Assembly: GCF_000744255.1 (NCBI RefSeq)
Contig: NZ_JQLO01000001.1
Location: 992,001-1,056,000, forward strand
DNA: 64,000 nt
Reading direction: 5' to 3'
Source: Carnobacterium divergens DSM 20623
Lineage (GTDB): Bacteria; Bacillota; Bacilli; Lactobacillales; Carnobacteriaceae
Shown here one piece after another: positions 62,113 through 63,886 of this stretch. The notes below the pieces were generated by a model. That model saw nothing but the letters and a program-made list of their open reading frames with translations. It was not told where the DNA came from and searched no databases. Both the position numbers and the translations under genes were made by a program. Each line of letters starts with the position of its first letter. The stretch's first letter is position 1.

Positions 62113-62366
62113 TAAAAAAAGCCCGCCCTTATTCTATATAGAATAAGGACGAGCGAAATGAATTAGACCGTGGTACCACCTTTTTTTGAAAGCAATGGAT
62201 GCTTTCCTCAACGATTAACGCTCGTAAACGTAACAGCTTTGCACTGTTAACCCTCCAGAGTGTCTTTCAATCAAAATTACGGGAATCTTTTTCAGCCATC
62301 GAAGATCCTCTCTTTATACTCGCTAATTTTGTTTACTTTTTCTTTCATCAGGTAACTTATTAGATT
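62113..62366 (-). promoter_or_regulatory. T-box leader of hisS-aspS
   Basis: T-box riboswitch on the minus strand: T-box sequence AGGTGGTACCACGGT (complement of 62167-62181), a terminator stem GCTCGTCCTTATTC/GAATAAGGGCGGGC (62121-62154, some G-U pairs) followed by TTTTTTT, and a specifier region GAAA-GACAC (GACAC = complement of 62260-62264). GACAC contains GAC (Asp, 62262-62264), aligned with GGC of the glyQS leader, and CAC (His, 62260-62262) two bases on. The leader thus responds to uncharged tRNA-Asp, tRNA-His or both. The remainder of the 504-bp gap holds the two promoters and AT-rich DNA. Confidence 0.9.
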
Positions 62367-62566: not shown

Positions 62567-63886
62567 ATGGAACAGACAACAATACCGAGGAATCATAAAA
62601 AGACTTTTTTACTTTTTTTCATTCTATTAATTAGCCTTACTGCTTTTGCTACAATGGCTTTAGCAAATTATAGTACGATTAAAATTGACGCCGCTGTAGT
62701 AAATGTTCGAACTGGACCGGGTTTATCTTATGATACGATGACCCAAATCGGTGCAGGAGATCGAGTCAATATTTTAGAAGAAAAAAACAACTGGTACAAA
62801 GTGCGTTTAAGCAATGACAAAATTGGTTGGGTTGCGAGCTGGCTCGTAAATAATACTGAAATCAGTGCTGCTACAAATACCATGGGAACTGTTACCGGAG
62901 AAAAAATTAACATTCGCAGTGAAAGCAACGATCAAGCAGCAATCATTGGTTCTGTTACAAAGGGAACAGAATTAACTGTGTTGTATCAAGAAAATGGTTG
63001 GACTCAAATTCAATACAATCAACAAGTAGCTTGGATTAGTTCAAAATTTATCGATGTAAAACCAGCTTCTGTTCAACAAGAAGCTCCGACGACTGTTAGT
63101 ACAACTGATGAGAAATCAGCTTCAATCAAGACCATTACAATTCGAAATGAAGAAGCTAATATTCGAAGTGCACCAGGTACAACGTCTAGTTTAGTAACAA
63201 CCGCTACTAAAGGTCAAAATTTTGACTATGTTGGAACAAGTGGCGATTGGTACCATATTCGAAATGATGCTGGTATTGATGGGTATGTCGCTAGCTGGTT
63301 AGTTGATTTATCTGCTGATACTTCTTCTGCACCACTGGCTAATGTTTCATCGTTAGCAGAAGCGACTGTCGTCATTGACGCAGGACATGGTGGGGATGAT
63401 CCAGGCGCAGAAGCATCTACCTTTTACGAAAAAGAAGCGACGTTAAAAACCGCTCAAACATTAGCAGCTAAACTAAAAGCTGTCGGTGCGAATGTTATTT
63501 TAACGCGTGATTCAGATAAGAGCGTTAGTCTTCGCCAACGTCCAGCTATCAGTAACCAAGCTAAAGCTGACGTCTTTATCAGTATTCATTATGATTCAAC
63601 GGAAAATGCGAATGATGGAAGCGGAACAACCACGTATTATTACCACGAACGTGACAAAGCACTTGCAAAAATAGTGAATGATGGACTGGCTAATGGTCCG
63701 TTGCCTAATAACGGTGTGCGTTTTGGTGATTTCCAAGTAACAAGAGAAAATACGCAACCTGCTCTATTGTTAGAGCTTGGTTATGTGAATAATACGACGG
63801 ATAGTTCAATGATTAATACAGACAGTTATCGAGAAAAAATTTCAAATACTATTGTTCAATCTTTAAATCAATACTTTAAAAAATAA
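62567..63886 (+). CDS. N-acetylmuramoyl-L-alanine amidase with three SH3b domains
   Basis: Secreted peptidoglycan amidase of 439 residues. A signal peptide or anchor (about 12-32) is followed by three bacterial SH3 domains, each with an RTGPG- or RSxx-type start: VNVRTGPGLSYDTM (about 43), INIRSESNDQAAII (about 113) and ANIRSAPGTTSSLV (about 203). The C-terminal amidase_3 domain (about 265-439) shows VVIDAGHGGDDPGA with zinc His, YEKEATL with Glu, and SIHYD, ending near LLELGYVNN. It should cleave the wall for remodelling or cell separation. The ribosome binding site is weak. Confidence 0.92.
   Translation: MEQTTIPRNHKKTFLLFFILLISLTAFATMALANYSTIKIDAAVVNVRTGPGLSYDTMTQIGAGDRVNILEEKNNWYKVRLSNDKIGWVASWLVNNTEISAATNTMGTVTGEKINIRSESNDQAAIIGSVTKGTELTVLYQENGWTQIQYNQQVAWISSKFIDVKPASVQQEAPTTVSTTDEKSASIKTITIRNEEANIRSAPGTTSSLVTTATKGQNFDYVGTSGDWYHIRNDAGIDGYVASWLVDLSADTSSAPLANVSSLAEATVVIDAGHGGDDPGAEASTFYEKEATLKTAQTLAAKLKAVGANVILTRDSDKSVSLRQRPAISNQAKADVFISIHYDSTENANDGSGTTTYYYHERDKALAKIVNDGLANGPLPNNGVRFGDFQVTRENTQPALLLELGYVNNTTDSSMINTDSYREKISNTIVQSLNQYFKK

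Follow-up and report, generated by a model that had tools for sequence, protein, structure and literature searches.

The 64,000-nucleotide window of Carnobacterium divergens DSM 20623 contains hisS and aspS, arranged as an operon, and there is a T-box leader followed by an intrinsic terminator upstream of hisS (Table 1). Of 190 hisS loci in Lactobacillales, 172 are followed by an aspS match. By HisS, the nearest named relatives of the genome are Lactobacillales, the first being a Carnobacterium MAG. A divergent gene (62567-63886, plus strand) encodes a 439 aa protein that, by eye, is N-acetylmuramoyl-L-alanine amidase-like with SH3-like repeats. The same T-box search gave 17 T-boxes in the genome. 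The window also holds the glyQS T-box (L015; 36576-36406, minus strand), which has a GGC specifier and UGGA and, at 88.7 bits, scores below the Rfam cut-off. Three Met T-boxes of the genome (L009, L011 and L016) precede metN-type transporter genes, with L011 and L016 in tandem, 49 bp apart.

Table 1. Features of the hisS-aspS locus (CM, covariance model)
Feature	Position	Strand	Evidence
T-box leader RNA, from stem I through the antiterminator	62357-62142	minus	Rfam RF00230, 93.2 bits, E 4.2e-19, model 1-219; aligned with 219 relatives
GAC, Asp specifier, in register	62264-62262	minus	CM alignment; GAG-anchor spacing as in glyQS GGC and tyrS UAC of the same genome
CAC, overlapping His codon at +2, out of register	62262-62260	minus	Last base is the first lower-helix pair in relatives
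Lower helix below specifier loop, 5' strand AGAA	62340..62343	minus	Comparative pairing
Lower helix below specifier loop, 3' strand CUCU	62257..62260	minus	Counts of pairs between +2 to +5 and 62340-62343
Antiterminator bulge UGGU, N = U62175	62178-62175	minus	Sequence, CM alignment, tRNA genes of the genome
Intrinsic terminator stem-loop	62154-62121; T tract to about 62112	minus	15-pair stem, 7 GC, then TTTTTTT
hisS, histidyl-tRNA synthetase	62062-60740	minus	ORF 440 aa; 312 related stretches among searched genome contigs
aspS, aspartyl-tRNA synthetase	60714-58927	minus	ORF 595 aa; 25 bp after hisS

The leader barely exceeds the RF00230 gathering score of 93 bits. The string GACAC (62264-62260) is in its specifier loop: the minus strand reads GAAAGACAC from 62268 to 62260 (plus-strand letters GTGTCTTTC), and in the CM alignment UUGAAAGACACU falls on the specifier-loop strand auGAAauucaCC of the model. 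A preliminary description of this DNA had noted a hisS-aspS T-box with overlapping GAC and CAC codons, and these results bear it out. The terminator folds with -25.4 kcal/mol (z -4.59) and its stem overlaps the 3' strand of the antiterminator, so that the two are mutually exclusive, as in a T-box. The specifier within the loop, GAC, matches the second gene of the operon, aspS, and the last base of UGGU can pair with the discriminator of tRNA-Asp (G73) by a G.U wobble. Stem I was judged by CM alignment and comparative pairing, as its minimum-energy fold in isolation was uninformative (-10.7 kcal/mol, poorer than for most shuffled sequences).

In the other T-boxes of the genome and the family the specifier is 6 bases (at times 7) from the GAG, as for GGC of glyQS, UAC of tyrS, UGC of the Cys leaders and AUG of the Met leaders. 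The hisS-aspS leader has GAC 6 bases from the GAG, as against 4 for the overlapping CAC. Together with the CM alignment, this spacing confirms that GAC is in register and that CAC is two bases further on, as had been read from an alignment with the glyQS leader. In true His T-boxes, which precede His-type ABC transporter genes or hisZ, CAC is at the canonical spacing. Three hisZ leaders (L381-L383) carry GACAC, yet have CAC in register and N = A in UGGN, and so the string alone is not decisive; the register decides.

The CM alignment upholds the placing of GAC on the specifier columns, but the last base of CAC, C62260, is on the first paired column beneath the loop. In 149 of 176 distinct hisS leaders the base at this position (+2) forms a pair with its partner on the 5' strand, against a mean of 116 and a best of 128 in 2000 shuffles that leave relatedness among the leaders in place. 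These pairs are G-C in 117 leaders and A-U in 24, the base covaries with its partner, and neighbouring offsets give far fewer pairs. At +3, +4 and +5 there is pairing in 165/169, 175/176 and 168/174 leaders (shuffle means 149, 128 and 136). In the window leader A62340 faces C62260, an A.C mismatch also present in 10 other leaders. GAC is inside the loop whereas CAC extends into the lower helix, although CAC is less tied up here than in most relatives because of the mismatch.

Overlapping CAY codons are also found at T-boxes for other amino acids. In a set of 47 T-boxes from this bacterial family whose specifiers end in C, neither Asp nor His and assigned by eye from downstream gene and spacing, A-C or A-U comes directly after the specifier in 28. 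Examples are CGCAC (argS), UACAC (tyrS), UUCAC (pheS) and ACCAC (thrS), and A-C follows the C-ending specifier in 21 of 22 argS/argG, tyrS, pheS and thrS leaders. We judge that CAC in the hisS-aspS leader is probably a by-product of ordinary T-box structure, arising because C-ending specifiers commonly precede an A and then the first base of the helix, which is usually C or U.

The tRNA genes of this genome and of every other genome read give the discriminators G73 for tRNA-Asp and C73 for tRNA-His. Of 171 Lactobacillales hisS T-boxes, 159 have U as the N of UGGN and 12 have C; both bases can pair with G73 and neither with C73. In the 22 true His T-boxes, N is A in 17, G in 4, C in 1 and U in none; the 11 before transporter genes all have A and the hisZ leaders have A (6), G (4) or C (1). 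The UGGU of the window leader thus suits tRNA-Asp and not tRNA-His. TBDB, however, skips the discriminator criterion for His on the grounds that C73 can pair inside the tRNA (PMC7778990). As tRNA-His may bypass the contact in this way, the UGGN evidence favours Asp more than it forbids His.

A simple T-box pattern missed many leaders in which the motif ends in GTG rather than GCG, and was replaced by an iterated profile. The comparison covers 220 hisS leaders, of Lactobacillales and of other Bacilli. The codon in register is GAC in 193 of these and AAC in 27. GAC is followed by A-Y in 144 of the 193, making GACAY the commonest form, and CAY is absent from 49. The forms without CAY include GACAG (Enterococcus avium group and others), GACGC (Lactiplantibacillus and some Levilactobacillus), GACAA and GACCC. 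Presence of CAY has changed at least 19 times on a HisS tree (FastTree). Nearly all of the 49 leaders precede hisS-aspS pairs, so the two codons are not kept together while both genes are present. The preliminary description had suggested comparing other leaders as a check on dual sensing, and the comparison goes against that idea.

GAC and AAC have switched at least eight times on the HisS tree. AAC (Asn) replaces GAC in leaders L075, L098, L102, L107, L116, L196, L207, L212 and L227-L232, for example as AACAG in Enterococcus cecorum. AAC was considered as a mark of genomes that lack AsnRS, but this is not general: most of the AAC-leader genomes searched have an AsnRS match, and only four (G068, G036, G181 and G281) are without a match above the asnS cut-off. 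On the tree, independent changes were too few to test whether AAC goes together with N = A. In one Bacilli family (f11) all ten hisS-aspS leaders (L233, L234, L236, L238, L239, L241, L242, L243, L277 and L282) combine AACAY with UGGA. UGGA is the usual form of the true His T-boxes of Lactobacillales, yet the in-register AAC would mean Asn. From the AAC leaders and the f11 form, the predicted tRNA specificity at hisS-aspS is not fixed across Bacilli.

Within Lactobacillales, 172 hisS loci are followed directly by aspS, and 170 of them have a T-box. Of the 18 others 1 has it, and there aspS is about 1.8 kb further on. No T-box was found at any of the 17 hisS loci with aspS apart. Eleven genomes sampled from two genera (f8 g18 and f2 g15) have the two genes apart, and none of them has a T-box before hisS; two of these loci were also negative by cmscan. 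There is, in contrast, a T-box before aspS in all 10 of the split genomes of these genera that were scanned, and those read have GACAC or GACAU with N = U. Scanning of 14 split aspS loci in all gave 10 with a T-box, the four without one being those of streptococcal type (f3). As the T-box is on aspS and not on hisS when the genes are split, the leader goes where aspS goes, and GACAC is retained even where no hisS follows it.

Taken together, the register, the helix pairing, the UGGN base, the repeated loss of CAY and the staying of the T-box with split aspS suggest that the hisS-aspS leader is very probably a transcription-attenuating T-box specific for uncharged tRNA-Asp, and that it controls the operon. 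Binding of the tRNA, antitermination and a response to aspartate starvation are what we infer from this. The anticodon GUC of tRNA-Asp would pair with the GAC specifier and the 3' end of the uncharged tRNA, GCCA, with UGGU, with the wobble at the discriminator. This pairing would stabilize the antiterminator and block the terminator, so that hisS and aspS would be transcribed when Asp-tRNA is short. As the first gene, hisS would be carried along in aspartate control. Four observations count against a reading as Asp alone: the mismatch at C62260, the prevalence of GACAY, an N that only wobbles with tRNA-Asp, and the AAC and f11 leaders of other Bacilli. The leader may also respond weakly to tRNA-His.

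The preliminary description had proposed that one leader might sense both tRNAs by a change of register, so that tRNA-Asp at GAC or tRNA-His at CAC, shifted by 2 nt, would balance both synthetases. In its favour are the presence and overlap of both codons, the position of hisS as first gene, the frequency of GACAY, which is the commonest form, and the unpaired C62260 of the window leader. There is also a precedent in a Clostridium acetobutylicum T-box for tRNA-Asn and tRNA-Glu, as described in the passage of PMC4052509 that cites Saad et al. (2013). However, A-Y after a C-ending specifier is common among T-boxes that can have no dual reason for it, the third base of CAC belongs to a helix, and an N of U or C never suits C73. 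CAY has been lost many times while hisS remained in the operon, and GACAC has been retained before aspS with hisS elsewhere. We consider regulation by both tRNAs quite unlikely, and the evidence favours tRNA-Asp alone. That CAC is the sole codon read, in a His-specific T-box matching the first gene, would agree with the position of hisS and with the name histidine T-box given to the staphylococcal hisS-aspS element (PMC7927825). This is highly improbable given that CAC is out of register here and in register, mostly with UGGA, in true His T-boxes from this genome and its order, that 49 leaders have lost CAY and that hisS alone has no T-box.

The changes between GAC and AAC and the form of the f11 leaders could also mean that the operon has changed its tRNA partner in evolution (Asp with GAC, Asn with AAC, perhaps His with CAC), each leader reading one tRNA and GACAC or AACAC easing the switch. 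Against this, in-register AAC would be Asn, AsnRS is missing from only some AAC genomes and nothing indicates that a shifted CAC is read anywhere; we give this explanation of the overlap almost no weight. As a general picture of the locus, a switchable leader that would be read as Asp in most Bacilli (GAC with UGGU or UGGC), as Asn in some (AAC) and as His through a shifted CAC in f11, with the overlap as the route of switching, seems doubtful.

The overlap and the dual idea are already known from Gutierrez-Preciado et al. (2009), to judge by the passages of two later papers that cite it, and the earlier proposal mentioned in the preliminary description can be traced to this review. In one, the hisS-aspS element may take two structures and so sense both tRNAs (PMC4342826); in the other, GACAC is characteristic of the element and Gutierrez-Preciado et al. 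are said to have suggested mainly tRNA-Asp (PMC5313534). The latter also reports GACAC for hisS2-aspS of Lactobacillus parabuchneri. As far as these passages describe it, the Bacilli element is like the window leader in operon, T-box class and GACAC within the loop, and there is no basic difference beyond the A.C mismatch at +2 of the latter. The C. acetobutylicum transamidation-operon T-box likewise has overlapping codons in one specifier loop but, as cited in PMC4052509, is reported to bind both tRNAs, whereas the comparative evidence for the hisS-aspS leader is against a second tRNA. The glyQS, tyrS, argS and pheS T-boxes of the same genome or family share the register and antiterminator, and often A-Y after a C-ending specifier, and differ in specifiers and downstream genes. 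The His T-boxes of Lactobacillales histidine transport and hisZ operons also contain CAC, and differ in the register of CAC and in the base at N.

An overlapping codon string on its own is weak evidence for dual sensing because ordinary T-boxes yield it more than half of the time. Other proposed dual specifiers can be checked in the same way, by the register, the helix pairing, the UGGN base and the gene that keeps the leader after the operon splits. For this lineage, the comparison provides further evidence against sensing of both tRNAs and independent grounds for regarding the hisS-aspS leader as a probable aspartate switch.
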